A DNA stretch of 44,064 nucleotides, taken from positions 1-44,064 of IMG/VR virus record IMGVR_UViG_3300025070_000067; one strand, given 5' to 3'. Of this stretch, positions 5,290-24,100 are shown piece by piece. Origin of the DNA: a virus. The position numbers were made by a program, and so were the translations under genes. Below the pieces are notes generated by a model that worked only from the letters and a program-made list of their open reading frames with translations, made no database searches and was not told the origin of the DNA. The stretch's first letter is position 1. Each line of letters opens with the position of its first letter.

Positions 5290-7686
5290 ATGACAATATC
5301 TATATTTAAGAATATAAAAGATACAACTCAACCCTTTGAAAGGGATGTGCTACACATCTTAGAAAGGATTAGGGAGGGGGCTTCTAGGGATGTTATAAAG
5401 GACATTCGTGGGGAGCGAGACAAGTCAAGGAGGAATCAATTGAAGCAGGACTTACCAGCTATATGTTTCTCCGGGACTTTTAAGAAGAGAGCAGATAACG
5501 CACTCATTAAGCATAGTGGCATTATGTGCCTTGACTTTGATGGATACGATAGACAGAAGGATTTACTGGAGGATAAAGAGAAGTTCAAGCAGAACAAGTT
5601 TGTATACTCAGTATTCCTGTCTCCATCGGGCAAGGGTCTTAAGGTATTGGTGAAAGTTCCAGCTGACGAAAGCAATCACAAGAACTACTTCAACAGCCTT
5701 GAGAAATACTTCAAGTCCGACAAGTTTGATAAGACTTGCAAGAACGTTAGTCGTGTATGCTACGAGTCCTATGACCCCTTGATCCATATCAATGAGACTA
5801 GTTCTGTTTGGGATAAGGTCGAGGAAGATAGTTACACGGAGCTGATGAAGAACCGGGACAAGCCCTCTATACCAATCACGGATGAAAACAAAATCATTGA
5901 CATACTGGTGAAGTGGTGGGAGAAGAAGTACCCAATGGTAGAAGGGCAAAGGAATCATAACGTCTACATATTAGCGGCGGCTTTTAATGATTTCGGAATA
6001 AATAGGAGTCTTGCCGAGTTCTATTTACGTCAATATGCAGCAGAAGGTTTCAACGACGAGGAAATCATGGGGACTATTGTTTCGGCATATAGCCATACTG
6101 CTAAGTTCGGTAGTAGATACTATGAAGACCAGGACAAGATGCAGTATGTCAGAGACAAGATGAGGTCGGGTGTATCAAAAAAAGATATACGATGCACTCT
6201 TGAGCCATTGGAGGAGAAGGGTGTAGACGTTGATGGCATCCTTAAGTCGGTTGAGGAGGAGCAAGAGGAGCAGATGTTTTGGACTAAATCGGATAAGGGT
6301 AAGGTTACTATCATACCCCTGTCGTTTAAACTGTTCTTGGAGGATAGCGGGTTCTATAAATACAATCCCGAGGGGAGTAAGAACTACGTCTTTGTGAAGG
6401 TGACCAATAACTTGATTGACCATACCTCGGAGAAGGAGATAAAGGACTTCGTGTTGAACTACGTTCTTGATCTGGAGGACCTGTCGGTTTACAACTACTT
6501 TGCTGAGAGCGTTAAGTACTTTCGGGAGGAGTTCCTTACCCTTCTTTCATCTATCGATGTGTACTTCATTGAGGACGAGAAGGACTCAAGTTATTTGTAC
6601 TATCGTAACTGTGCGGTCAAGATAACTCCAACCGATATAATACCTATCGACTATATGGACTTGGGTGGTTACGTATGGAAAGACCACGTTATCGACAGGA
6701 ACTTCCTAATGTGCAAGCCTAGGGACTGCGACTATAAGACCTTCATCCATAACATATGCGGCAAGGACGAGAATCGTATTCTATCTATGGAGTCCACCAT
6801 TGGCTTCCTAATGCACGGGTACAAGAATATGTCGTACTGCCCAGCAGTAATCCTTAATGACGAGGTGATAAGCGACAATCCCGAGGGTGGCACGGGTAAG
6901 GGTATCGTAATGAATGCCCTGTCTCAGATGAAAAAGCTGGTCACTATTGATGGTAAGTCATTTACGTTCGAGCGTTCGTTTGCCTATCAGCTGGTATCAG
7001 CAGATACTCAGATACTATGCTTCGATGATGTGCGAAAGGCGTTCAACTTTGAGCGATTGTTTTCGGTGGTTACTGAGGGGTTAACGCTAGAGAAGAAGAA
7101 CAAGGATGCAATCAAGATACCCTTCAAGAAGTCACCTAAGATTGCCATCACAACCAACTACGCCATCAAGGGTAAGGGTAATTCCTTTGAGCGACGTAAG
7201 TGGGAGTTAGAACTTCACCAGCATTATAGCAAGGACTTCACCCCATTGGATGAGTTCGGCAAGTTGATGTTTGGCGATTGGGATGATGATGAGTGGTGTG
7301 ACTTCGACAACTACATGATATCGTGCCTACAGATGTATATGAAGGATGGCCTTATCAAGAGTGAGTTCGTTAACCTAGCCATACGGAAGTTAAGTGCTGA
7401 GACATGCCACGAGTTTATTGAATGGTGTGGCTTGATAGATGGATCAAAGCCATCAGAACTTCTAAGGCCTAACATTAGGCTGCGTGCTAATGAGTTATAT
7501 ATGAGGTTCACCGATGACTACCCTGACTTCGCACCGAAGGCCAAGATGTCCGTGTCCAGGATTAAGTTCCATAGATGGCTCAGGGCTTACGGCACGTTCA
7601 AGTATTCCAATATAGAGGAGGGTAAGGATATGGAGGGTAAGTGGATTTTGTTTGGCAACAAAAGCAATGACGATGTTCCGTTTTAG
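5290..7686 (+). CDS. Primase-helicase (BT4734/VirE-N type primase plus SF3-like helicase)
   Basis: This 798-residue protein begins with a BT4734/VirE-N-like primase domain: IMCLDFDG at 78-85, SPSGKGLKVLVKV at 111-123 and NVSRVCYESYDP at 152-163. A PriCT-like helical segment follows around residues 200-280. The C-terminal half is a superfamily 3/D5-like helicase with Walker A GGTGKG at 533-538, Walker B ILCFDD ending at D580, and a sensor-like KIAITTNY. It probably primes and unwinds phage DNA. The last residues, NDDVPF, match the acidic-aromatic tip of bacterial SSB proteins. The gene opens the replication operon after a 202-base regulatory gap. Confidence 0.85.
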   Translation: MTISIFKNIKDTTQPFERDVLHILERIREGASRDVIKDIRGERDKSRRNQLKQDLPAICFSGTFKKRADNALIKHSGIMCLDFDGYDRQKDLLEDKEKFKQNKFVYSVFLSPSGKGLKVLVKVPADESNHKNYFNSLEKYFKSDKFDKTCKNVSRVCYESYDPLIHINETSSVWDKVEEDSYTELMKNRDKPSIPITDENKIIDILVKWWEKKYPMVEGQRNHNVYILAAAFNDFGINRSLAEFYLRQYAAEGFNDEEIMGTIVSAYSHTAKFGSRYYEDQDKMQYVRDKMRSGVSKKDIRCTLEPLEEKGVDVDGILKSVEEEQEEQMFWTKSDKGKVTIIPLSFKLFLEDSGFYKYNPEGSKNYVFVKVTNNLIDHTSEKEIKDFVLNYVLDLEDLSVYNYFAESVKYFREEFLTLLSSIDVYFIEDEKDSSYLYYRNCAVKITPTDIIPIDYMDLGGYVWKDHVIDRNFLMCKPRDCDYKTFIHNICGKDENRILSMESTIGFLMHGYKNMSYCPAVILNDEVISDNPEGGTGKGIVMNALSQMKKLVTIDGKSFTFERSFAYQLVSADTQILCFDDVRKAFNFERLFSVVTEGLTLEKKNKDAIKIPFKKSPKIAITTNYAIKGKGNSFERRKWELELHQHYSKDFTPLDEFGKLMFGDWDDDEWCDFDNYMISCLQMYMKDGLIKSEFVNLAIRKLSAETCHEFIEWCGLIDGSKPSELLRPNIRLRANELYMRFTDDYPDFAPKAKMSVSRIKFHRWLRAYGTFKYSNIEEGKDMEGKWILFGNKSNDDVPF

Positions 7687-8899
7687 ATACTACCAAGAGG
7701 ACATAATCAGCAAGGCAACTGACACGATCAATCGTTATGGATTCGTTTACTTGGCGATGGAGGTTAGGACGGGTAAGACACTTACCAGCCTAGGCATATG
7801 CAAGGAGGTTGGAGCAAAGAGTGTTCTGTTCTTGACCAAGAAGAAAGCCATCAGTTCAATACAAAGCGATTACGACATGTACGCACCTGGTTACGATATC
7901 ACGGTGATTAACTACGAGTCGATGCACAAAGCCCCTCAAACTAAATGGGATGTTATTGTGCTGGATGAGGCTCACGGACTTGGTGCATTCCCTAAGCCAT
8001 CAAAGAGAGCAAAGGGCGTATTCACACTCATCAAAAAGACGGGCGCAAAGGTGATCCTGCTTTCGGGTACACCAACTCCTGAATCCTATTCACAGATGTT
8101 TCATCAAGTGTATGGGATGCCTAGGAATCCTTATTCCGAGTTTAAGAACTTTTACCGGTTTGCAGACAGGTACGTTATAATCAAGGAGCGAAACCTAGGA
8201 CATCACAGGGTGAAGGACTATAGCGGCGCTACGAAGGGGGCTATGGACCTAATGAAGCCATACATGATATCGTTCTCTCAGAAGCAAGCTGGCTTCGAAG
8301 TGGACACCCAAGAAAACGTGCTTAGGGTTAAGATGTGCGACAGCACATACGACCTAATACACAGACTAAAGCGTGACTTGGTCATTGAGGGCTCGGAGGA
8401 GGTTATACTTGCCGACACGGCTGTCAAGTTGATGAGCAAGGTTCATCAGATGTGTAGCGGAACCGTTAAGTTCGAAAGTGGCAAGAGTATGGTCCTGGAC
8501 TATAGCAAGGCTGAATTCATCAAGGATAGGTTCAAGGGAAAGAAAATTGGAATATTTTATAAGTTTAAGGAGGAACTTAACGCCCTAAAGCATATATTTG
8601 ATGATAAGTTGTGTACAGAACTCGATGAGTTCAATGGAAGCAACAAGAACATTGCATTGCAAATTGTAAGCGGGCGGGAGGGGATAAGCCTACGAGAAGC
8701 GGATGCATTGGTTTACTATAATATAGACTTCAGTGCGACATCGTATTGGCAATCTAGGGACAGGATGACAACAAAGGACAGGCTAAAGAACGACATCTAT
8801 TGGGTGTTTGCTGAGAAAGGAATCGAGACCAAGATTTACAAGACAGTTAGTGGCAAGAAGGACTACACATTATCTCACTTTAAAAAGGATTTTTTATGA
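7667..8899 (+). CDS. SNF2-like superfamily 2 helicase
   Basis: The protein has helicase motifs in order: EVRTGKT (motif I, lysine near residue 37), DEAH at 100-103, SGTPT at 133-137 and YWQSRDR near 360-367 (motif VI), using the ATG at 7667. The frame also opens with an in-frame TTG at 7652, but the ATG at 7667 or 7673 is more plausible; either overlaps the primase tail by 14-20 bases. At about 410 residues it is a compact form, typical of phage SNF2-like helicases that act in replication or recombination. Its stop overlaps the methyltransferase start by four bases. Substrate is unknown. Confidence 0.85.
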   Translation: MTMFRFRYYQEDIISKATDTINRYGFVYLAMEVRTGKTLTSLGICKEVGAKSVLFLTKKKAISSIQSDYDMYAPGYDITVINYESMHKAPQTKWDVIVLDEAHGLGAFPKPSKRAKGVFTLIKKTGAKVILLSGTPTPESYSQMFHQVYGMPRNPYSEFKNFYRFADRYVIIKERNLGHHRVKDYSGATKGAMDLMKPYMISFSQKQAGFEVDTQENVLRVKMCDSTYDLIHRLKRDLVIEGSEEVILADTAVKLMSKVHQMCSGTVKFESGKSMVLDYSKAEFIKDRFKGKKIGIFYKFKEELNALKHIFDDKLCTELDEFNGSNKNIALQIVSGREGISLREADALVYYNIDFSATSYWQSRDRMTTKDRLKNDIYWVFAEKGIETKIYKTVSGKKDYTLSHFKKDFL

Positions 8900-10077
8900 G
8901 ACACGGCAGTTTATTTTCAGGCATAGGTGGGTTTGATCTTGCATCCGAATGGATGGGTTGGACAAACGTATTCCATTGCGAGTGGGAGGAGTTCCCACGC
9001 AAAGTATTAAATCATCATTTCCCAAAATCAATATCATATGGAGACATCAAAGAAACAGACTTTACTATTCACAGAGGGCAAATCGACATCCTCACAGGGG
9101 GATTCCCTTGCCAACCTTACTCCGTCGCAGGCAAGAGAGAAGGTAAAAACGACGATAGACATCTCTGGCCAGAAATGCTACGAGCAATACGAGAAATTAA
9201 ACCAAGGTACGTCGTGGGCGAAAACGTTCGTGGCCTGCTTAGTTGGAATGGAGGATTGGTTTTCGATGAGGTGCAAGCTGACTTGGAAGATGAAGGCTTC
9301 GAAGTCATCCCGTTTATACTTCCAGCTGCAAGCGTCAACGCCCCGCACAAAAGGGACAGGGTATGGTTTGTTGCTCACGCCAACGACCAGGGAGGACGTG
9401 GTAAACTTGGAGACATTTCAAAAGCGAATGGAGAAATATCCCAACGGAACGAAGATGCCAAACCTAGCAACGCAGGTGAACGGGATGCTACCCACACCGA
9501 CAGCATTCGATTGGAACTCAGCAAGGAAACCCGAGACATTCGAGAAGGCAAAGCAGAGGCACAAGGAGAAGGGAGTGAACCTTCAAATGCCACTGAAGCA
9601 GATGGCAAGAAACGGAATGCTACCAACACCACGGACGACGGACGTGGAGGGAGGCAAGGCCAGCGGGGTAAAGAACGACGGCAACGGATGGTATCGGGAG
9701 AACAAGAAGGGCGAACGATGGGGAGTGAAGCTCAGGGACGTAGCGGAGAACGGGATGATTCCCACGCCAACATCGAGGGATTGGAAGGGGAAACAAGCCA
9801 ACGAGTACAAGAGGGACAGAGGGGAGGATTCTCACTACAAAATGCAGAGTCTCCCGGGCGTAGCAGAGAAGATTGCGGAAACGGGTGGGAAGTCTTCCCA
9901 ACTCAACCCCCTGTTCTGTGCGGAGATGATGGGATTCCCCGCAAGTTGGACGGTATTACCTTTCCTAAATGGAGAAAAGAATCAATCAAAGCCTACGGAA
10001 ATGCAATAGTTCCTCAGGTAGTTTTTCCTATCTTTAAGTCTATACAGCTTCATGAGAGAGCAGCAAATACAATCTAA
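8896..10077 (+). CDS. dcm: DNA cytosine-C5 methyltransferase
   Basis: This 393-residue enzyme shows the C5-methyltransferase motifs: LFSGIGGFD (motif I, residues 6-14), GGFPCQPYS with catalytic C72 (IV), GENVRG (VI, 108-113), RDRVWFVA (VIII, 153-160) and AYGNAIVPQ (IX-X region, 366-374). Residues 161-350 form the target-recognition region and are unusually hydrophilic, with repeated H/N-A/T-N/D-x-x-G units. It transfers a methyl group from S-adenosylmethionine to cytosine in phage DNA, probably against host restriction. No cognate endonuclease is adjacent. Much of the gene (9038-10009) also encodes another protein in the +1 frame, which explains the odd composition of the recognition region. 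Confidence 0.9.
   Translation: MRHGSLFSGIGGFDLASEWMGWTNVFHCEWEEFPRKVLNHHFPKSISYGDIKETDFTIHRGQIDILTGGFPCQPYSVAGKREGKNDDRHLWPEMLRAIREIKPRYVVGENVRGLLSWNGGLVFDEVQADLEDEGFEVIPFILPAASVNAPHKRDRVWFVAHANDQGGRGKLGDISKANGEISQRNEDAKPSNAGERDATHTDSIRLELSKETRDIREGKAEAQGEGSEPSNATEADGKKRNATNTTDDGRGGRQGQRGKERRQRMVSGEQEGRTMGSEAQGRSGERDDSHANIEGLEGETSQRVQEGQRGGFSLQNAESPGRSREDCGNGWEVFPTQPPVLCGDDGIPRKLDGITFPKWRKESIKAYGNAIVPQVVFPIFKSIQLHERAANTI
9038..10009 (+). CDS. Overprinted 323-residue protein with LPTPTA..DW repeats, inside the methyltransferase gene
   Basis: This frame is +1 relative to the methyltransferase and is entirely nested in it. Its protein is not random: it has an N-terminal TLLFTEGKSTSSQ segment, a TSWAKTFVACLVGMEDWF and RCKLTWKMKASKS core, four repeats of the type G(M/L)(L/I)xTPxxxxD (near 9370, 9479, 9611 and 9749), and a C-terminal SSQLNPLFCAEMMGFPASW then PTEMQ. 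I recall proteins with this exact order from many Bacteroidota phages and prophages, often annotated as hypothetical or as methylase pieces. Its last codons lie in the DNA for the AYGNAIVPQ motif of the enzyme. The start at 9038 is preceded by A/T-rich sequence. Function is unknown. Confidence 0.7.
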   Translation: METSKKQTLLFTEGKSTSSQGDSLANLTPSQAREKVKTTIDISGQKCYEQYEKLNQGTSWAKTFVACLVGMEDWFSMRCKLTWKMKASKSSRLYFQLQASTPRTKGTGYGLLLTPTTREDVVNLETFQKRMEKYPNGTKMPNLATQVNGMLPTPTAFDWNSARKPETFEKAKQRHKEKGVNLQMPLKQMARNGMLPTPRTTDVEGGKASGVKNDGNGWYRENKKGERWGVKLRDVAENGMIPTPTSRDWKGKQANEYKRDRGEDSHYKMQSLPGVAEKIAETGGKSSQLNPLFCAEMMGFPASWTVLPFLNGEKNQSKPTEMQ

Positions 10078-10297
10078 AAGAATTAAGGAACTCGAGGCTG
10101 ATGGTTATTACGTGATAAAACTTATAAAGACTAACAAGAATGGTATTCCTGACCTCATTGCTATCCCCCCTGATTCGGGTGTTTTGTTTTCTGAAATCAA
10201 AACTAAAAATGGGAAACTATCAAAATTACAGGAGTACAGACTCGGAGAACTCGAAAGACACGGATGCAGAACAGAAGTATATGGTACAGATAGATGA
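10052..10297 (+). CDS. VRR-NUC nuclease
   Basis: This 81-residue protein is a minimal VRR-NUC (PD-(D/E)XK) domain. Visible catalytic residues are D34 in NGIPDLIAI and E48-x-K50 in SEIKTKNGKLSKLQ, after an N-terminal helix SKRIKELEADGYYVIKL. Stand-alone VRR-NUC proteins of this size are frequent in phages and act on branched or structured DNA; the exact substrate here is unknown. It overlaps the methyltransferase end by 26 bases and the next gene by 17, so it is a coupled member of the replication operon. Confidence 0.88.
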   Translation: MREQQIQSKRIKELEADGYYVIKLIKTNKNGIPDLIAIPPDSGVLFSEIKTKNGKLSKLQEYRLGELERHGCRTEVYGTDR

Positions 10298-11400: not shown

Positions 11401-12103
11401 AGTTAGGCCAAGACTAAGCGGACAACGATTAGCTGCTTACAACAACATTACAAGCAATGAAAAGCGTTTGCTAATAGTCGGTGATATTCACGAGCCCTTC
11501 TGTCTACCAGGATACCTTGATTTCTGTGTAGAGACTTATCAAAAATTTAATTGTAATGCCGTGCACTTCTGTGGGGACATCATCGATAATCACTATGCCT
11601 CATATCATGAGACAGACCCCAATGGACTCTCAGGAGGGATGGAGCTTGACTTTGCGATAGAGAAGGTTCAGGAGTGGAGTAAGGCATTTAAGACCGCCAC
11701 GGTTTGTATTGGCAATCATGATCGGCTTATAGCCCGCAAAGCGTTCTCATCTAACATACCCAAGGCTTGGATTAAATCCTACAATGAGGTGCTTGGCACT
11801 AGCTGGGATTGGCAGCCTCGCTTTGTTATTGATGGCGTACAATACGTGCATGGTGAGGGAGGGACAGCTCGCACTAAATCAAAGAATGATATGATGTCCA
11901 CAGTGCAGGGGCACATCCATACACAAGCCTACGTAGAGCACCTATGTGGACAGGATAAAAAAATATTCGCTATGCAGGTCGGCTGTGGCATAGATAGGGA
12001 AAGTTATTCCCAGGCCTATGCTCGCAACTATAAGAAGCAGGCTATTGCCTGTGGCGTTGTCATAGGGGGGCATACTGCCATCAATGTGATGATGACTAAT
12101 TAG
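11393..12103 (+). CDS. Calcineurin-like metallophosphoesterase
   Basis: With the ATG at 11393 the protein has 236 residues. An in-frame TTG at 11387 is less likely to be used. The metal-binding motifs appear in order: GDIHEPF near 30-36, GDIIDNH at 61-67, GNHDR at 107-111, VHGEGG near 152-157 and GHIH at 173-176. This is the complete two-metal active site of the calcineurin-like family. Phage members hydrolyse phosphodiesters or phosphomonoesters, with poorly known substrates; processing of nucleotides or nucleic acid is plausible. It is the last plus-strand gene, and its stop shares the palindrome CTAATTAG with the giant gene on the other strand. Confidence 0.9.
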   Translation: MTEVRPRLSGQRLAAYNNITSNEKRLLIVGDIHEPFCLPGYLDFCVETYQKFNCNAVHFCGDIIDNHYASYHETDPNGLSGGMELDFAIEKVQEWSKAFKTATVCIGNHDRLIARKAFSSNIPKAWIKSYNEVLGTSWDWQPRFVIDGVQYVHGEGGTARTKSKNDMMSTVQGHIHTQAYVEHLCGQDKKIFAMQVGCGIDRESYSQAYARNYKKQAIACGVVIGGHTAINVMMTN

Positions 12104-15100
12104 CCTCCTCGGCAAGTACTAACTTTTGCATCTCCTCAGTCACTTGAGTTTTAGTGATACCATACTTGCTTTTTATCTCTTTGAACTTCTCCTCGTCGTT
12201 CATCATTATAGTGTAGAGCTGGCGAGTAGTATAATCATTTAATGCTTTGTACATTGTTTTCATAAACTTGTACTCCTTTTCTGCTTCCTCTATCGCCGCT
12301 TGTATATCTTGGTATACCTGATACTCCTTAGGGTTGTTTCTTTTGAGATTAGCCAAGGCGTTTTCAGTTAGCTCATACTCTGGATTCAAGCCATCTTTTC
12401 TGTTGCCAAACTTGTCAAACTCGTATGTAACGTATTGTTTGATTTGATCCACAGTTAGGTTGTGTTTTTCCATAACATAGCCATACGTTTGCTCAAAGAA
12501 TGCATCAGTATAGAAATTATCCTCTCCCATCCTTTTGGTGTGTGTCACAAGGTTGTTGATGTACCTTCTGACTTCCCTAACCGGTGAGAAGTAGTTAAAC
12601 ACCATATACTCTTGTAATACGGCTTGACTCTCAGGAGATATTTTCTTTACGGTCTTATTGCCGAACTCATCTTCATAAATGTACTCCCCCGTGTTTGCAA
12701 GTCTTTGGTATTCTAGCATGCCTTCTATATCTTCAAAAACAACCCCAGCAATACCAAGCATTTGGTTATATCCCCCAGTGTCAAATGTTCTAAATAAATC
12801 CTCTTGATCCACTTCGTCTTTTTCAGAAAGAAGATTTAATGCTTTGTTGTACAATACTATTGCTTGCTCATCCCCAGGTGGGAATGGGTTTAATAAATCG
12901 TTTAAAAATCTACCGCCATACATTCCAATGATATAATCCAAGTCCTTTTTACACATTACAAATCCAAGTGCACCAACCTTTTCATCGCACTTGTTTGGAT
13001 CCTCAAACCCTAATTTATCACCAGCCTTGGCAAATAAATATCTACCCATCATATAGCCTATAGCTACATAACTAACCATCTCGTTAAATGTACCAACAAG
13101 GTTTGCCGCTGCATCTCTTCTGTCTTCTATCGTAGTGGCTGGACTTGCTAATATCTTAACACTAGTATTAACTCTAACTCTTGCATTAAGTCTGAATCCT
13201 GACAAGGGTATAAATATTTTAATAAGCCCTCTAGCTACACTGTTTTTGTTAGTAAAAAATGCGCCCTTCATATCCTCATCGGATACGTTTTGAGTATCTG
13301 CAACTTTGATGTCTGCGAATGAAGCAGCCTCCTCATTTAATTCGTGGCTCGCCCAATCAATGTTCTTATGAGGAAGCCCCATCTGCTTTAGCTTCTTCTT
13401 GTAAAACCCAAGGAACGCTGTTCTTGCAGCCATCTTATCAAAAAACCCAACAGACAATTGAAGTGCACTTGTTGAAATTGAATCTATCACATCTAGCCCA
13501 GAGAACGCTAAATTTTGAGATGCAGATAATGACCTTGATAGCTTCTCTTCCATTCCTACCTCTACCCTTGACCCATAGCCTCTATTTATAATTGAAAGGC
13601 TTGTTCTGTCTATAAATTTATTTGCTTCACTATAAGGATTAAAAACAGAAATGATGTCTTTTGTTATAATGTTCGAAACTCCAACTTGACTCGTGGCACT
13701 AATCATTGCGGTCAAATACTGCTTCATAGATTGACTCACTTGAACCATAACCTTCGCCATACCTACGGTGGTAAGAGTTCTGAACACCTTTTTAACCGCC
13801 TTATTTGATTCTACATCAGTATCTAGGGGTTGCCCCAGCTCATTTCTTTTGAGCCTCCTATAGATGTCAATCCTACTCCTAACTCTTTCTACTTGTTCCT
13901 TTGTGTTTACAATTTCAATAAACTCAGGTGAGTTCACGTATCCATCTATTTGCTTCAGCGACTCCACGGTTCTAGCATCAATGAGACCCTCTCTCAGCCT
14001 AGTGTAGGCCACCCTATCAAAATCTAAATTAAGAATCTTGCCCTTTGGAAGTGATTTAATTTTCTGAGTGTCTAATGTTATCCTAGCCTGTCTTTGAGCG
14101 CCATAACTTTGTGCGGCCTCCTCCGCAAACTCTGTGGGGTCAATCGTTATGAAAGACCTTGGGAAATAGTTTTGATCGTTAGGTAGTCGTTTGTTGTAGT
14201 ACTGCTCAGTAACTCTTTTTAGCTCTGGAAAGTGCTTTGAGTATAAGTCCCTCCAATAACTAACCAACCCTAAGGAATCAGGATTCATTTTAGTCACAAC
14301 ATCCTCTATTGTTTCAGAACCCTTTACTATTCTATCGTATACTTTTTGTTGAGCCTCACCTTTTTTAGAATCTATTTTGGTTAGCACCTCTACAGACTCT
14401 TTAAGCATTCTTTTATTATTCGCAAAAGCCTCTTCCTTGCTAGAGCCCTCCTCTATTCTATCTAAGTGAGCGTACATAGCTCTTTCTACGTGCTGGTCAT
14501 ATGTGTTGTTTTTTCTTTTTTTCAGTGAAGGCAACTTGCTTAGTTTAAGAGAGAACACGGCTTTTCTTATACTGCCATCCCTTAAATCAGCAAAACCATT
14601 CAAGTATTCATTCACTGTCTTCTCTCCAGAGTTTGACCCCTTAACGAGATCCGCTGAACCAGAGTTATTGAAAAATGTGTTAGACTTGTTTGTGCCCCCC
14701 ATAACAGAAATCAGGGTACTATAAAAAGTTCTTGCCGTTCTGTCGTCAAATTTTCCAATAATGTTATACTTTGACCTTTTCGCCCCTTTAAGGCCATCCT
14801 CAATATCTTGAAGTAAATTTTTTCTACCAGTATGATAACTAACGGATTCAGACATTCCATATAAGCTACCATTCTCCAAGAAGTTAGTCAATACATTGGC
14901 GGCTTTTATAACCATAGCTCTATCCTTGAGTAGGTTTAAATCCATAGCCACAAAGTCCTTGACCAACTTAGCATCTTGCTTACCAAGACCCCTGTTTTTT
15001 ATTTCTGCTTCTACGTCTGGCGTAAGCCTTTCAAATAAAGCATTGAAATTATTTATAAGTTCTTTGGTTGTTTCCTTTTTTGTCGTTTGGTCTCCCCTCA

Positions 15101-18100
15101 GGGCTGCTTTCATTTGAGACATTGTAAGACCTTTTGGATCTAACCCCTCGTCTACTAGTTTTTGCTTTAGCTCTTCGGCTTGCTTATCTCTTTGCCTTGC
15201 CAGCTCCTTGGATACATATGCGTTTACTTCAGACTTGTTAAATGTCTTTGGCATGCGAGGCTCACCCTTTATCATCTTGGAGTTCTCCATTCCAGCTGAA
15301 ATAATAGCACCCAATTGAGTATACTCATCTATGTTAGGAACGCTCTCTATGTTTAGACTTATAAAATCATTCGCAATTGCCTTGATGTCTCCAGGTACAG
15401 CGTCTCTTTTTCTTTTGCCTTTTATTTTTTTTCTGATACCATCCGCATTCTTAAACTTCTCAGCGTATGCCGCATCCTTAACTATGTTGTTTAGATAAGC
15501 CTCAAACCTAGCTATTGTGTTAGGGTTCTTCTTGCCTATAACATACTTCAGCCTTCTGAGTATCTGAGCGTTTACTTTATTCTCCTTGCTTATCTTGTTT
15601 TCTTTCAAGAAGGCTTCAATGTCTCTAAGCATTGCAACGCTACGCTTTTTCACACTCATCTCGGCACGCCTAGTTGCAAGGTCAATTTCTTTAATTCTCT
15701 TTATCAACTCCTTAGCCTCGTTGACAACAATCATTCTTCCAGGAACTTTCGCTTGCTTTTCAGCAACCTTTATAAAGTCATTTATGGCGTTGGTCATAGA
15801 CATCTCAGACCTAGCCTTCCCAAGCCTATCTACAAATCGACCCTCTTTGCCCACCAAGTTTAGACCCTTGGCCTGTCTGTTCACCATTGTCTTCAGGGCG
15901 CTCTTCTTTGCCGTAAGAGTTTTGTCACTAGCCAAGACCTTTTTAACTTCAGCCTTGAAACTGTCTAATTTTTCTGTAGACACGGGGGCCTCAGCTACTT
16001 CAACCGTTGGCTCTGCTTTCTTAGCCTCAGCCACTTCAACCGTTGGCTCTGCTTTCTTAGCTTTTGTGGGGGCAGGTTTCTTTTCAGAAACAACTTCACC
16101 GCCTAACATAGTGGCGTATATGGCACGCATCCCATCATTCAACTCGATGTCTATTGCTGAACCTGTTATGCCATTATATATATCAGTAAGCCAAGTCTTG
16201 AAACTTTCAAATATTTTTTTGAGATTGGTAGAAGGGGCCTTACCCTCAGCAAGATACTTTTCAAACCCTCTAGCGAACTTCTCACTTACAGACCTGTTCC
16301 ATTGCTTCTCGCCCGCAAAATCCATAACAACCTTCTTATCTGCATTGGTCAGGTAATTTTCATATACGTGAGCCATCTCGTGAAGAGGTGTTGAAATATC
16401 AGGATTCTCTAATGCAAATATTATATGCCTCCCGTGCTTAGAAAAAACAGCCCCCTTGTTCTCTTGGAACTTAACAAACGACTCGGGAACATCCTTTAGC
16501 TGGTGGTTGTTGTAATTTTCTTGCGTAGGCAGTATTGCCGAGTTTGATCTGGACTGAGCTCTTTCTATGAGCCTATCTATAGTTGCCTTGTCGTTAGGGT
16601 CAAATACCGTTACTGTGGAGTATACGGGGTTCGTAATGTTGTTCCTAGTTATCTCACCAATGATAGGCCCTAGGTGAACAGAACCCCTTGTTGTTGGTTT
16701 TAATCTAGGCTCTGAAGGCTCCTTAGGGTAGCTCTTTAGTGTTACAGGCACAGCCCCGTCGAAGTTGAGGGTGTATATGTGCTTGCTTCCAACCTTCACG
16801 GAAACTATCTTATCTAAATTCTCATAGGTGTTCCCGTCGAAGTTTGCCGTCCACTTCCATCCAGCTGACTTCTTGAATAGGTTGACTCTAATAATTTTGC
16901 CCTTACCCTTAGTAACATCTGTTTCAGAAACATTATCGGATACACTAAGGGATGGTTTGCCCGTTTCAGGATCAACACTAATTCTAGCTGAAGTTCCCGT
17001 GAAGTTATTTACAGCCTTGAATTGCTTCATGTCAACAAACACCCCACCAGGCTGATACTTAAACTTACGCCCCAGCTTATACAAAAACGACTGCTTGTCT
17101 TTTTCAGATACGCTCTTGCCTGTTGCTTCTTCGTATCCCAATAGGAATCTTTCAGGTAATGGCAGAACAGACATTTCCTTGGCCTCATCAAGAACCGTAG
17201 AGGTCTGCTCCCTACTCATAATTGGTAGTTGCTTATCGAACAAGGCATAGCTAATCACAGCACTTTCATCAATAACACCTTCGGGTCTTTCGGCAAACAA
17301 TGCTCCTTGAAATCCTGCGTTCTCCATTTGGTCAATAAACTGACTGCCAGTAGCCCAATCATTTATGCCATTTCCACCCTCTGATGCCTCTCTCATGCTT
17401 CTAATAGCATTATTGTAATCTCGTAAAGCATCTTCTTTTGAATCGTATTCTACTTCAAGCTCCTCATTGTTTTTTAAAAACCCTTGTTTTAGTTTCTCAA
17501 TGTGCTTAGGGTTTCTTAAATCGAATAGATTCTGTTTCTTTTGTTTGGAAATTATTGTTTGAGTTACTTCACCCCCTCTATCAGTAGAATATATTTCTGC
17601 ATACCTTCTGTTTGGAGTCAAGAATATTGCTCCCGATGGCCCTCGTTTTATGGTTTTCCCCTCAAGTGGTGTTGGTGAGCCGTGAAACACAACCTCTGAA
17701 TCCTCATCAAGAACCGTAGAGGTTGCTCCATCTTGGGACTCCATTCTGTTGGTGGACTCCTCGATGTCTGATTTTACTATTTGGCTCTCTGTCTCTTGAG
17801 CGACAGGACTCTCGGTCATCATTTTAAGAATGCTTGAAGAGACACCCGCTTGCCCAGGGAACACTTTGCCGTGAGCACTTTTACGTGGCCTTCCTTGCTC
17901 TAAATCAGAAAGAGCATCAGAGAACCTTTCCCCTTGCTTGTTGGGATTCTCTACTATGTTTTCTCTAGGAGACGTTTTATCAAAGAACTTGACGCTAACC
18001 TTAGACTGAGGGTTAATGGTTTTTATTGCAAATGGATAACTTCCGTGAGCATCATCTGCAACTGCCTCCACTAATGGAGCATCAAGAGCAACCCCTTCAG

Positions 18101-21100
18101 GTCTTGTAACTTCAATCACAGCATAAGCCTGACCCGATCCATTACTAGTTAAATCCCTTACAATAGGCTCTCCTAAAACGTAAGCAAATCCATTCACCAA
18201 TCCGCCTTTATCTCCCTTTTTAATCGCTAAGTTTCTTCTACTAGACACAGACAGTTTGTACCCCGTGTCAGCAAAGAATGACTTCATAGATTTAACAAAC
18301 TTGCTATTTGCGTTATTATTACTTCTGCTTAATATCTCAGTAATCAATTGTTCATTAAAGTCCTTTCTTTTTTGAAAGTTTGTGTTCTGTGGTCTTGACA
18401 CAACCTGTATAGTGGTCATTATTTCGTCTAAAGAACTCTTTGTGGTTAGGTTGTTTTCTATACCAGCTTTTTTCATTGCTGCTACCACAGACTTCTTATA
18501 TGTGTTTTCGGTTATACCAAAGTCAGGGTTGTTTGAAAAAGCGCTAAAGATGCTTGCAACGCCCTCCATTGAGTTTGAGTTGCTAAGGTTTTTAGTTCTT
18601 GATCCCGTAGTAAGGACCATTCTAGCCACGCCATCCTCATTGCTTACTCCCGACTCATTTATAAGGTTAACAAGTCCACTTGCAGCGGCCTCTCCTGTGC
18701 TAGCCCAAACTGGTTGCTGTACGTCTCCATCTTGCTTAAACACTATGGGGTAAAGAGCACCGCCCTGACCCTTTAAAATAGTCTCTCCTTTGTATGTAAA
18801 GTTGGACACAGAAGCGTCATCTGGTTGGTGGAACACTGCCGTTTTGCCATCCAATGATTCAATCGATACATCTTTCTCAATTAATCCAGCTTTAACAGCA
18901 TCGTCAAACTCCTTGGAGTTCTTGAAAAAGGTAAAGGTTATTTTGCTGTCTCTTGAGCTATAGTCCGATTGGAACAATAGGCTTGCAGGGTTCATAGTCT
19001 TAGGGATTCCTCCAGGGCTTCTTCTGAAAGAGATTTTCTTGTACATCTCCTCCTTGGAAATGCCATCTCTCTTTGCCATAGCCTCGACCATTCTGTCGCT
19101 GATAACTGCCGCCGCTTTAGCCTTCTTATTACTTAGCCCAAATATGTCTTTATTTATGGCAGTTAAGGAGTTCACGTCAGTAGCCCTTCTTCCAGCAAAT
19201 CCCTCTTCTAGCTGAACCTCTACTCTTTTTCCATCAATAATAATGGTGGCAAATCGCTGTCCGAAGTTTGGAGACTTTTCAAACTTATTTTCCCTTACTT
19301 CTACTAGTTGTATCTCTTTGTTTTTTGCGTCTGCATATTGCTCAACAGCCGGTTTGTTTGCTTCAGCATCCATGTCGGCATCTAAGTTCTCAGCAAGTTG
19401 CTCTAAAGAGTTATATGTCTTGTAGTTTTGTGTCTTTGGTCGACCTTTCTCATCTAATATAGTCTGAACAAATGTCGTTGTCTCTACGCCTCTAGTTCTG
19501 TTTAAGTCAGTATCTGTTTTAATCGTAACCTCTGCGCCTTCAGCAAATGGTTGTTCTAGTTTTTCTTTAAACTCATCTACCCTTGGCTTATCCTCTATTT
19601 TCCTTGCAACAACCTTTTTTGGCGGTTGCTTTTGATCCTCTGATACAGGAGCTGGGGTCACAGCCTCTTCGGTTACGCCCTTTTTTGATGGAACAATCAT
19701 AGTTATAGTACCATCCTCAGATTTTTCTGTTCTTTTGGCTAATGTCTCTTCTAAAGATAAATTTTCATCTCCTTTAGCCCTCATCCCTAATTTATAATTC
19801 AATGATACAGAAGCATCGTTAGTTGCAACTCCTGAAATTTGGCCGTCAGTATATGATATAGCTGCTTTTAACAAGGCCCCCGCCTTGCCCTTTCTCCTTT
19901 GACTTTCATCTACCTGCAAGCGCAATATTGAAAATACCTTATTCCCTTTTACTCTACCTATCTCCAAAACACCACCATCAACGCTAAAAGTTTGCATACT
20001 CCCTTCTTCAAAAGATGGATTACTGCTATCAGTTGGTTGAATATTTACTTTTTCAGCAGGTGCTTCTTGTGCTACTTCTTCAGTTGCTGGAGCAGCCTCC
20101 TCCTGTTCGGTTGCCGCATCCGCTCTTCCTAAAATATTTCTACGAGCATCCGAAAAGTTATTGAGGGCTTCAAACGTATTCTTGTTTTCAGTAAATTGAC
20201 TATTATATTTATCAAAATCCTCAAAAACATACAATTCTTTTGTCTGATTAAGAGAAAAACCGCCCTTAAATGTTATGTCAGTTGGCCGGCTCATAAAAGG
20301 AATTTTTACCGTGGCATATGTATAGCCCAGCTCTTGAGGTGGTTTTACATTTGAAACCCCTATCCCATCTTTATTAGCAAACTCTGACTTGGCTCCTTTA
20401 AGAGCCTTTCTAGCATTAGGTCCAGGTATGTATATTTTTTTATGGTATGCAATAGCACTATAACGTACCCTCTCAGCCTCTCTAACCTCTTTTATTTTTT
20501 CCGTTAACTCAGCTGGGGCCTTTTTTGATTCTAAGGTTACTTTAAGAACTCCAGTATTAACAATTTCTTCTTCAAACTCTTGGTTTATACTAGACTCACT
20601 AAACGCATTGTAATCCCCTGCGGTTAAAACATAATCTGAATATACTTCTAGCGCTCGTTGTTTTTTACCTGCATTAATTAAAGCGCCAACCTGACTATAT
20701 GCTAGGTTACTTCTGCTGTCAAACTCCTGAGAGGAATCGCTGATTGCCAATTCAGATCCCTTAGAAAAATATTCAATATTTCTCTTCCTGTTTTCAACTG
20801 CCTCTTCAAAATCAGACTCAGACATTGTATAACCCGTAGTGTAATTAAATATGTTTCTACTTGGAGTGACTCTGCCAATTTTAGGTCTTTTTTTGAAAAA
20901 ATAACTGCCGTCTTTTTGTTTTTTGCCCGATTGTAACTCTGACAATTCAGCGTTAAGGCTTGCAAGAATATTATCATACCCCTCTTTTATTTCAGACAGG
21001 TCCTCTTTGGTTAACTTAGTTTTGGCCATTAGTGAATTAGCCGTTATTTGCCTTGCCTTGCTCTCTTCTATTTCAGCAGATGCCTCTGCGCCCTTTTCTA

Positions 21101-24100
21101 CTTTGAATTGGTTTAGCTTAGTTATAAATTCATCTCCAGCCTCTTTAGTAACCTTATAGGTTTCTCCAGCTTCTGTTTTTACAACCTCACTTTCTAATCC
21201 TTCAGGAGGCTTTACAGAAAACAGGTAGCTTCCGTCTTTTTGCCTAGCATTCTGCATTGACCTTGATACGCCATCAGCGTCATCTATCTCTGATTTTATG
21301 TCATCAATTTTTTGCTGAGATTTAGACTTTCCCTTTTTAATCCTGGACGTATCGTATTCAGACTTTAAAGAAGACATGATGTCAGACTGAGCCAAAGGAG
21401 ACCCTAAAGATTCTGAGGTTATATCTTGTATTTCAGACGCTACGTTAGGATCATTTATAACTTGATACTGAGTTCTTTTAAAAGTCTTTGGATTGTTGTT
21501 GTCGAAAAAAGATAATATTTCATCCTTGCTCACCAGCTCCCCATTTAACACATACGCTGAATCACCTGTGTCATAAACCTCTTGAAGGCCAGTTATTGTG
21601 GAGTTTATGGTTTGTAGTTTTTCAACCTTATTCTCTATTCTTTTCTTTCTTTTTGGATTTCTCTCCCTAGCGGCTTGTGCTTCTAGTCTTTGAGAAGCCA
21701 TTTCATTGCTGTAAATTAAGTTTATACTCTCTTTGTCCTTAACCCTTGGAGACATATTTTCATATGCCCTGTGTGCGTACTCAAGATTCTTATTAAGGTC
21801 AATTCCTACTTTGCTAGTAATAACTCCATCAGCAACTAGTCTTTCTACCGCCTTCTTGGATGCATTTATGTTTTTGGCTGCAGGAAACAATAACTCGTCA
21901 AGTTCAAATTGTTGAGCATTCTTTAAGTTTGAAATCTCTCCAGTAACAGAGCGTCCTCCGCCCGCAAATCCAGTGATGAAAGACACGAGAACAGTTTCAT
22001 ATATTTCATCAGCAGTTCTAGTATGCTCCTCAATCTTATTATCAGACCGTGCCGCGGCATACCCGTGATACCCTGACTGAACTAGGTTTTCAAGAACAAC
22101 TTCCTCAAACGTCTCTTTTGCGCCTTCAATAACACCTGATTTTAGAAACCTAGCAGTTTGCCCTTTAACAACGTTTTTCATTACTTGCTCAGGGGCAAGT
22201 TTGGAGGCCGCCGCAGTCACCGTAGGAGTCATAGATCTATACCCTCCACCGACTAATCCTTTCTCAAGTCCACCAAACGCCATGTTAGTAAAACCAATAG
22301 CAAGACCCACTCTGCCCGCATAGTTGTTGGCTTCGTCTTCAGAAAATCCAGCTTGTAAAGCATATTCCCTTAGGTCGTTATATTGTTGACCAGCAATAAT
22401 AGACGTACCAATAACTTTTGGCATTGCCGCATTTATCAATTGAGTAGAGTACTGAGCAGCCTTTGGCAGGGCCTTCAATGCTCCTCTAGTAAGTCCAGAT
22501 CCAATACCACCTCCCGCAGCCAAAACAGCCAAATCAGAGGATACCCTCGTTAAAGACCCAACTGTTCCTGCAAGTGAAGGGTTATACCACTCCCTTGATT
22601 TAACCTCTCTTTCTTCAAATGATTCGTCTTTGCTTATTTGGTCTAATACCTTCCTTTTTTCTGCCTCCGAAACGTGACCAAGTTCACTAGTGTAAACATT
22701 TGTAGGCCTCCCCGTTTCATCAACATATACTTTGTAGCCCTCGTACTCTAAACTGCTTCCATAAACAGGAGAAGAAAAGTAATCAGATGTTAGGTTGTCA
22801 GTTCTAAGATTCCCCGCTTTGTGCATTTTACCTGACCACTCTATTATGTCGTCGGCAAATTTGTTTTCGTCAGACCAATTCATTGCGTATCCAGCCAAGC
22901 CTATAGTGCCCACCACGGCCTTGTATGCTGAACCACCCAAGGTGTTTTTAATATTTCCTATAGCCTGAAGCGTTAAGGGCTTAGACTCGAAGTCATCCTC
23001 TTTCCAATCTTGAACGTACTCGAGCTCTTTAAAAAACTCCATGGTCTCAGAGTCTACGATTCCAACAGAGTTTCTTTCGATGTTTTTAAGTGTTCTGTAA
23101 AAGTCTCTAGCCAAGTCAACTTCGCCTGATAAATATGCCGCAGAAAAAGCATCTTGATAATAATCATAGTATTTCTTTAGCTCACCCTGAACATCGTCCA
23201 TTCTTTCCTGCTCCTCAACTAAAGCCCTTTCATCCTTAAGAGTCACATTGTCTCTGAACCTTTCCCATATGTTTCTGTCATAAAGATTATAAGATTCAAC
23301 CCCCTCGAATATACCTCTAGCTTCCCCCACCGGTTTGTTAGCTAGGGCAATATTGTACTCGCCACTCTTACTAGTGTGTTTTAACACTTCGGCTATGGTA
23401 TAGTCTGAGTTGTTAAGTTTAAATGTATATCCATGCATATAGGGATTCCCCTCACCTGCATTGAAAACATTATCCCTAAGTGTAGATAATTCGCTTGTTT
23501 GGCCATACCTAGGATTTGCCTCTTGAAGGTATCTGTTAACTAGGTAGGTAAAATATTCATCTCTACTGCTAAATTGCTTCTTAATTGTCTTACCTAAGCT
23601 AGCGTCGTAAACATCTCCAACAAAACTTTTAGTTGATGCGCTTAGTGGTATATTTTTTAATATGTTGTTGGCGTATTCTGTTGCTTGAGAAACCAATTCT
23701 TCGTCACCCATGTCATTTAAAGACATTAATGCGTCAACCTTTACTTTAAAATCGTTAAAAACATATTCAGGATCATTTGACTTGAAAGCGTCAAGGTTCC
23801 CTACAGAGCCCTCTCCATACAAACGGTCAGGATCATCCATAATAGTTTGTTCTAGACTTGGGTCGAAATCGTCTCTTATTTTAGATATGTCATATAAATT
23901 GCCAAGAGCAATCTTTTCTATCCCCTCCTCTTGAAAAACCTTATCACTTCCACCCTTTTCATATTCCAAAACTATTTCCATAGCTCCAGATTCGGCTTCT
24001 TGTTTTTTAGCAGACTTAACCACTTGCTCCCTGCCTTCGCTGTCAATTATCTTTTTGCCCTCATATTCACTCAAGGCATTGTCTAGGCTATAATTACCCG

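Follow-up and report, generated by a model that had tools for sequence, protein, structure and literature searches.

A nested pair of reading frames in a Bacteroidota phage very probably encodes two subunits of one C5-cytosine DNA methyltransferase

C5-cytosine DNA methyltransferases are known in which the conserved motifs are divided between two chains. In M.EcoHK31I, a two-polypeptide enzyme (YGGCCR), motifs I-VIII and X are carried by the larger chain and motif IX by the smaller one, and two-piece C5 methylases, natural as well as artificial (M.EcoHK31I, M.AquI, M.SssI and M.HhaI fragments), are functional (PMC3404938). Nested layouts have already been annotated in Escherichia phage K1ind2, in Paenibacillus phage Shelly and other Paenibacillus phages, and in Streptococcus phage pST. 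The small chain of M.EcoHK31I is also encoded inside its large-chain gene, in another reading frame. Because the K1ind2, Shelly and pST pairs are annotated and M.EcoHK31I has been characterised, the nested two-subunit layout described below is already known in kind. Our search for literature on overlapping cytosine methyltransferase genes in phages returned nothing useful.

The DNA analysed here is a 44-kb virus record (IMGVR_UViG_3300025070_000067), the whole of which we call the window. It encodes a BT4734-like primase, a Sak annealing protein, and phage portal and virion proteins, a gene content that points to a tailed Bacteroidota phage as its source. On its minus strand, positions 12096-24995 are taken up by one open reading frame of 4299 amino acids, almost one third of the phage genome. 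The region of interest lies on the plus strand between a helicase and a nuclease gene, where two frames, here called A and B, share the same DNA. The neighbouring genes and the parts of frame A are as follows.

7652-8899, plus strand: SNF2/ResIII-type helicase (Pfam); its stop overlaps the start of A (ATGA)
8896-10077, plus strand: frame A, 393 amino acids, catalytic (alpha) subunit of a C5-cytosine methyltransferase (PF00145, phrog_363, Foldseek)
8896-9390, plus strand: residues 1-165 of A, SAM-binding and catalytic core with motifs I-VIII (profile alignment to M.HhaI 8-181)
9097-9114, plus strand: motif IV of A, GGFPCQ, with the catalytic Cys72 (sequence; no interruption in the window)
9391-9894, plus strand: residues 166-333 of A, unconserved, predicted-disordered linker where the TRD would be expected (pLDDT, pNN/pSN, conservation)
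9991-10017, plus strand: motif X of A, AYGNAIVPQ (G368 and N369 invariant)
10052-10297, plus strand: VRR-NUC nuclease (PF08774, E 5.8e-10); its start overlaps the end of A

Frame A matched PF00145 (E 1.3e-45) and phrog_363 (E 3.5e-75), and a Foldseek search with its AlphaFold model returned the HhaI and HaeIII methylases (E about 1e-12). Motif I (SAM-binding), the PCQ of motif IV (catalytic), the ENV of motif VI and the RxR of motif VIII are all present, and G69, P71, C72 and Q73 of motif IV are invariant (alignment A2). The model is folded over residues 1-165 and about 350-393 and disordered between. The core has a mostly confident fold with short weak segments and is conserved over 48 loci; in the linker, pLDDT is about 30-40 and conservation is near zero. 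When A was compared with M.HhaI, only residues 8-181 aligned, plus a weak match at motif X. We found no recognisable TRD in A, where residues 166-333 are unconserved and predicted to be disordered, and no motif IX; the motif IX-like pattern GFPxxW occurred after residue 150 in none of 197 A sequences.

Frame B is in the +1 phase relative to A and wholly nested in it, with these parts.

9038-10009, plus strand: frame B, 323 amino acids, +1 frame, putative nested target-recognition (beta) subunit (phrog_1008; recurrence of the nesting; selection test)
9038-9391, plus strand: residues 1-118 of B, N-terminal half overprinted on motifs IV-VIII of A (alignment A1)
9368-9769, plus strand: four LPTP-type repeats of B, candidate target-recognition modules (LLLTP 9368, MLPTP 9485, MLPTP 9617, MIPTP 9755)
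9899-9949, plus strand: motif IX of B, QLNPLFCAEMMGFPASW (alignment with single-chain methylases)

Over residues 17-305, B matched phrog_1008, which is described as 'DNA methyltransferase' (E 8.1e-25); all 44 aligned B proteins matched this family as well, and one viral scan with B yielded 63 relatives. Conserved positions of its N-terminal half are C47, G70, W74, W83 and QL96-97 (alignment A1). This half is common to the nested protein of Escherichia phage K1ind2 (hhalign E 6.7e-14) and would form the interface with A. The LPTP-type repeats begin at residues 111, 150, 194 and 240; their number varies from 0 to 5 in relatives, so B may, as a guess, hold several recognition modules. The C-terminal motif IX (SQLNPLFCAEMMGFPASW) was found in 184 of 197 unique nested B proteins. 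It aligned with LTPRECFRLQGFPDSF of the single-chain methylase of phage HK6 (hhalign E 0.12, one short motif and weak alone) and with LTAAFPEWMMGWPAGW of gp66 of Mycobacterium phage Batiatus; judged from sequence, the Batiatus single chain is a stronger link between B and motif IX than the match to HK6. The gene ends in AAG CCT ACG GAA ATG CAA TAG (KPTEMQ-stop), the same bases that encode KAYGNAI in A. Pfam gave no match to B of the window and scattered weak matches only to the 44 B proteins, and the B profile matched no PDB sequence even at E 10. The predicted structure of B is poor (pLDDT 58, no PDB match), which counts against the two-subunit reading, and Foldseek matches to so poor a model were meaningless. 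An earlier note on this DNA had described two same-direction frames of 393 and 323 codons, the second wholly nested, with four LPTP repeats and a terminal PTEMQ-stop written in the bases of AYGNAI; its coordinates and the shared bases were confirmed, and the four repeats are LPTP-like.

To follow the overlap through relatives, we assembled 224 loci. Of these, 219 were selected by B, in two scans of viral sequences, a genome scan and a search of phages, and the other 5 by A. B lies inside A in the same +1 phase in 208 of the 219 B-selected loci; it extends past a stop or a contig end in A in 9, and A and B form one open reading frame in 2. Within the reach of the B profile, and in a set biased to relatives of B, B apart from A was found in 0 of the 219. 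The overlap is conserved among phages of several bacterial phyla.

When the synonymous codons of A were permuted, with the A protein and its codon usage kept, the overlap in the window acquired a mean of 6 stops in frame B, and none of 500 permutations was stop-free. Over 48 non-redundant loci, 0 stops were seen in frame B against 241 expected. Substitution classes were then counted in 20 independent pairs with a bootstrap over codons, which is a counting method and not a full likelihood model. Differences that are synonymous in A and change B stood at 0.56 (0.50-0.63) before B, fell to 0.32, 0.34 and 0.21 inside the overlap, and were back to 0.60 (0.50-0.72) after the B stop. Among A-changing sites, the ratio of B-changing to B-silent differences (pNN/pNS) was 0.59, 0.59 and 0.36 inside the overlap and 0.83-0.87 outside it, with values above 1 in the control frame. 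For A, pNN/pSN was 0.24 and 0.42 at the two ends, which are constrained, and 0.96 (0.85-1.09), near neutral, in the middle third, where the linker lies; the middle (TRD) region aligns poorly across loci, and its selection figures are the least certain.

Both frames are thus under selection at the 5' and 3' ends of the overlap, and mainly B in the middle. The doubly constrained parts are motifs IV-VIII of A at the 5' end and, at the 3' end, motif IX of B against motif X of A. Because residues 166-333 of A are near-neutral and predicted to be disordered, the DNA there is kept for B and not for A. B is a genuine, selected protein, whose translation we infer from selection. The earlier note had held that the second frame is not noise, and the missing stops, the phrog_1008 match and the constraint on B bear this out. 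The frame-specific rates that it had proposed to compute show B constrained in the overlap and A-synonymous divergence reduced there, and the LPTP protein, whose occurrence without an overlapping methyltransferase it had proposed to check, was found in that state at none of the B-selected loci. Its suggestion that the target-recognition region of A is constrained by another protein did not hold, the corresponding stretch of A being the near-neutral linker.

We consider it very probable that the two proteins sharing these 972 bases are subunits of a single heteromeric C5-cytosine DNA methyltransferase. In Batiatus gp66, the core of A is followed, in the same open reading frame, by a part that matches B profile 184-305 and contains LPTP repeats and motif IX; motif X comes last. 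Since this single chain holds the C-terminal half of B at the TRD/IX position, B corresponds to the missing part of A. Of the roles that the earlier note had offered for the second product, a partner or specificity part agrees with this arrangement and an inhibitor does not, the C-terminal half being methylase TRD/IX in Batiatus. By analogy with two-piece methylases, the mechanism is most likely trans-complementation. A would contribute SAM binding and the catalytic Cys72 (motifs I-VIII and X), and B would supply the TRD and motif IX in trans. B would initiate at its own ATG (9038), behind an A-rich leader of the type usual for Bacteroidota. The two chains, neither active alone, would assemble into a working enzyme that methylates phage DNA, probably against host restriction. 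The linker of A would then be a non-functional bridge, holding motif X in frame while the DNA encodes B.

Several relatives vary this layout. In loci L048 (504-1334) and L049 (2841-3671), an indel fuses A(1-119) to B(73-) in one open reading frame; this could be a route by which single-chain and nested forms interconvert, or an error common to related contigs. In the +1 frame of the Batiatus locus (L220, 1841-2236), a short stretch matches B profile 125-201 (E 3e-4) and may be left over from a nested frame. L027 and L028 (2760-4436) have about 140 additional codons in A, placed after B ends and before motif X.

Other readings of the overlap were weighed against the two-subunit enzyme. B could be a separate overlapping protein, such as a regulator, inhibitor or anti-restriction factor, that is no part of the enzyme. 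The missing Pfam match would fit such a protein, as would an N-terminal half to which nothing in single-chain Batiatus gp66 corresponds. However, A lacks both a TRD and a motif IX, a single-chain methylase has the C-terminal half of B at its TRD/IX position, and B never stood without A at the 219 B-selected loci, so that we regard a separate role as unlikely. The fused frame of L048 and L049 could instead speak for a single polypeptide made by programmed frameshifting from A to B and back to A, with B not separately initiated. Two shifts would be required, because motif X is back in frame A; moreover, B has its own start (26 of 48 loci have ATG at the corresponding site), and its conserved N-terminal segment lies upstream of any useful shift point. 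Frameshifting is therefore very improbable.

Codon bias can yield long open frames in general, and frame B might be a chance or compositional product of a well-conserved gene. This idea is contradicted by the count of 0 stops against 241, by the constraint on the B protein and by homologues annotated as methyltransferases; the frame that lacks constraint in the central part of the overlap is A and not B. We rejected it as having almost no probability. A normal one-chain methylase split by sequencing or assembly frameshifts would accord with the existence of a one-chain relative, Batiatus gp66, but the same double frame recurs in about 200 contigs, in cultured phages and in finished genomes, and this explanation was rejected as extremely improbable.

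A group of six loci from Bacteroides and Parabacteroides genomes (L106, L108, L114, L121, L122 and L140) carries TGA in frame A at conserved Trp positions. The site LAAE-stop-MGW is found in 6 of 6, DFRG-stop-RGR or SR-stop-RQASIK in some, and a TGA in the linker in 5 of 6. Their frame B has TGG only, where counted, and the standard code applies in the surrounding DNA. A search near the TGA-bearing copy in the genome of L114 turned up no suppressor tRNA. These A copies reflect either readthrough or early decay.

A different interruption was seen in about 40 related A genes, which have a stop codon within motif IV (GGFP-stop-CQP). The insert is absent from the window, and we claim no hairpin of the kind described below for it. 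It was first seen as TAA in frame A of L020 (GGFP-stop-LCQP) and L045 (GGFH-stop-PCQP), and in further members of the lineage. Hits were pooled from a pattern search (any 6 nt between GGFP and CQP), a TAA-specific scan and the known loci; the pattern reaches only genes with GGFP and CQP. There were 45 hits in the methylase frame. The stop came first in all 45 (TAA 30, TGA 9, TAG 6; the TAA-specific scan and loci from a single lineage inflate the TAA figure), and a sense codon at that position in none of the 45. The second inserted codon was CTA, CCA, CTG, TCA, CCT, CTT, CCG or TCG in all 45, and every one of these could re-pair with tRNA-Pro if one G.U is allowed. One further case has 9 nt (CCA TAA GGA CCG TGC). 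At position 2994 of L045, the sequence is CAT TAA CCA, with the stop after a His codon and outside the Pro re-pairing rule. A pattern match in a Bacteroidota genome was not a methylase and was discarded.

A stricter set of 41 insert genes was used for comparison with standard genes. Nested B is present in 41 of 41; frame A remains open beyond the stop for a median of 258 codons, with motif X in 34 of 38, and A downstream of the stop is constrained like standard genes (0.28 vs 0.26). The take-off codon is CCG, CCT or CCA and never CCC, whereas standard genes have CCC in 58 of 198 and CCG in 10 of 198. On a FastTree tree, 15 changes of the trait are needed, and well-supported branches make at least 6 of these unavoidable; trees of such divergent methylases are poorly supported in places. 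The 50-60 nt directly upstream fold into a hairpin that ends at the take-off codon (median z -5.4; z below -2 in 38 of 41), with a mean of -22.0 kcal/mol against -7.7 in standard genes. In 31 of 37 insert genes, compared with 2 of 187 standard genes, every position of the hairpin's outer 7-nt arm is paired, and compensatory changes are seen at two pairs (CG 14 / GC 10; AU 11 / GC 8 / UA 3). Insert-bearing loci include L159, L225-L229, L234-L237, L240-L243, L246, L248, L253 and L261, as well as L266, L269, L280, L283, L287-L290 and others.

From these sequence patterns, it is likely that these relatives use a programmed in-frame stop hop to produce the catalytic subunit. The peptidyl-tRNA-Pro would leave its CCN codon, skip the stop and re-pair with CCN, CTN or TCN 6 nt on (9 nt once), and translation would resume at the catalytic Cys codon, restoring GGFPCQ. 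The hairpin directly 5' of the take-off codon would aid the hop, as in T4 gene 60. Readthrough is disfavoured, because all three stop types are used and the second codon can pair with tRNA-Pro throughout. Reinitiation at an NTG after the stop was rejected, that frame being open for a median of only 15 codons, and so was pseudogene decay, since downstream constraint on A equals that of standard genes.

A 2016 review noted that in-frame hopping had been shown with synthetic constructs and that no natural in-frame stop hops were known (PMC5009743). No natural in-frame stop hop turned up in the later papers that our searches covered. To our knowledge there is no earlier natural stop hop, and the methylase case would be the first. 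If true, the hop may control how much A is made relative to B, or shield a conserved DNA target from nuclease. All parts of this candidate signal can be read from sequence, in about 40 natural variants.

This nested layout of a C5 methylase in two subunits is widespread in phages, among them those of Bacteroidota, Paenibacillus, Streptococcus and Escherichia, and its B is often unannotated or labelled hypothetical. B is unannotated in Bacteroides phage BKO1-TP3. In Porphyromonas phage phage018a_AFR5B1 (L067, 1343-2371), the annotation covers B (1602-2216, called hypothetical) but not the A frame that overlaps it. The layout offers a clear natural case in which the recognition part of an enzyme would be written in the other frame of its own gene, the first protein being left with a near-neutral linker.

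Among the systems already described, M.EcoHK31I resembles the present locus in that its small chain is read from a second frame within the gene for the large one. Compared by description, the two also agree in the division of motifs, with I-VIII and X on the large chain (A) and IX on the small one (B), although the small chain of M.EcoHK31I is shorter than B (323 amino acids). The predicted TRD of M.EcoHK31I is on the large chain (PMC3404938), whereas here A has an unconserved linker in the TRD region and it is B that carries the TRD-like repeats. M.AquI is likewise a C5 methylase in two chains but carries motifs IX and X on its small subunit (PMC3404938), while here motif X is in A. ORF29 and ORF28 of K1ind2 are a nested +1 pair, both annotated as DNA methyltransferase, and ORF28 is homologous to B (hhalign E 6.7e-14); its sequence has diverged, the motif IX region more so. 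Shelly gp55 and gp56, with many relatives, are also a nested +1 pair, in which gp56 is noted as 'g55 internal gene' and matches the B profile at E 9e-45, but B is shorter there (705-nt CDS) and the host belongs to another phylum. Batiatus gp66 has the same A core, LPTP repeats with motif IX, and motif X, yet in one reading frame and with most of the N-terminal half of B absent. The putative stop hop of the relatives shares with T4 gene 60 a take-off codon followed by a stop, a 5' stem-loop and re-pairing of the peptidyl-tRNA (PMC5009743); T4 gene 60 has a 50-nt gap between matched GGA codons, whereas the methylase genes have a 6-nt in-frame gap and wobble-matched Pro codons.
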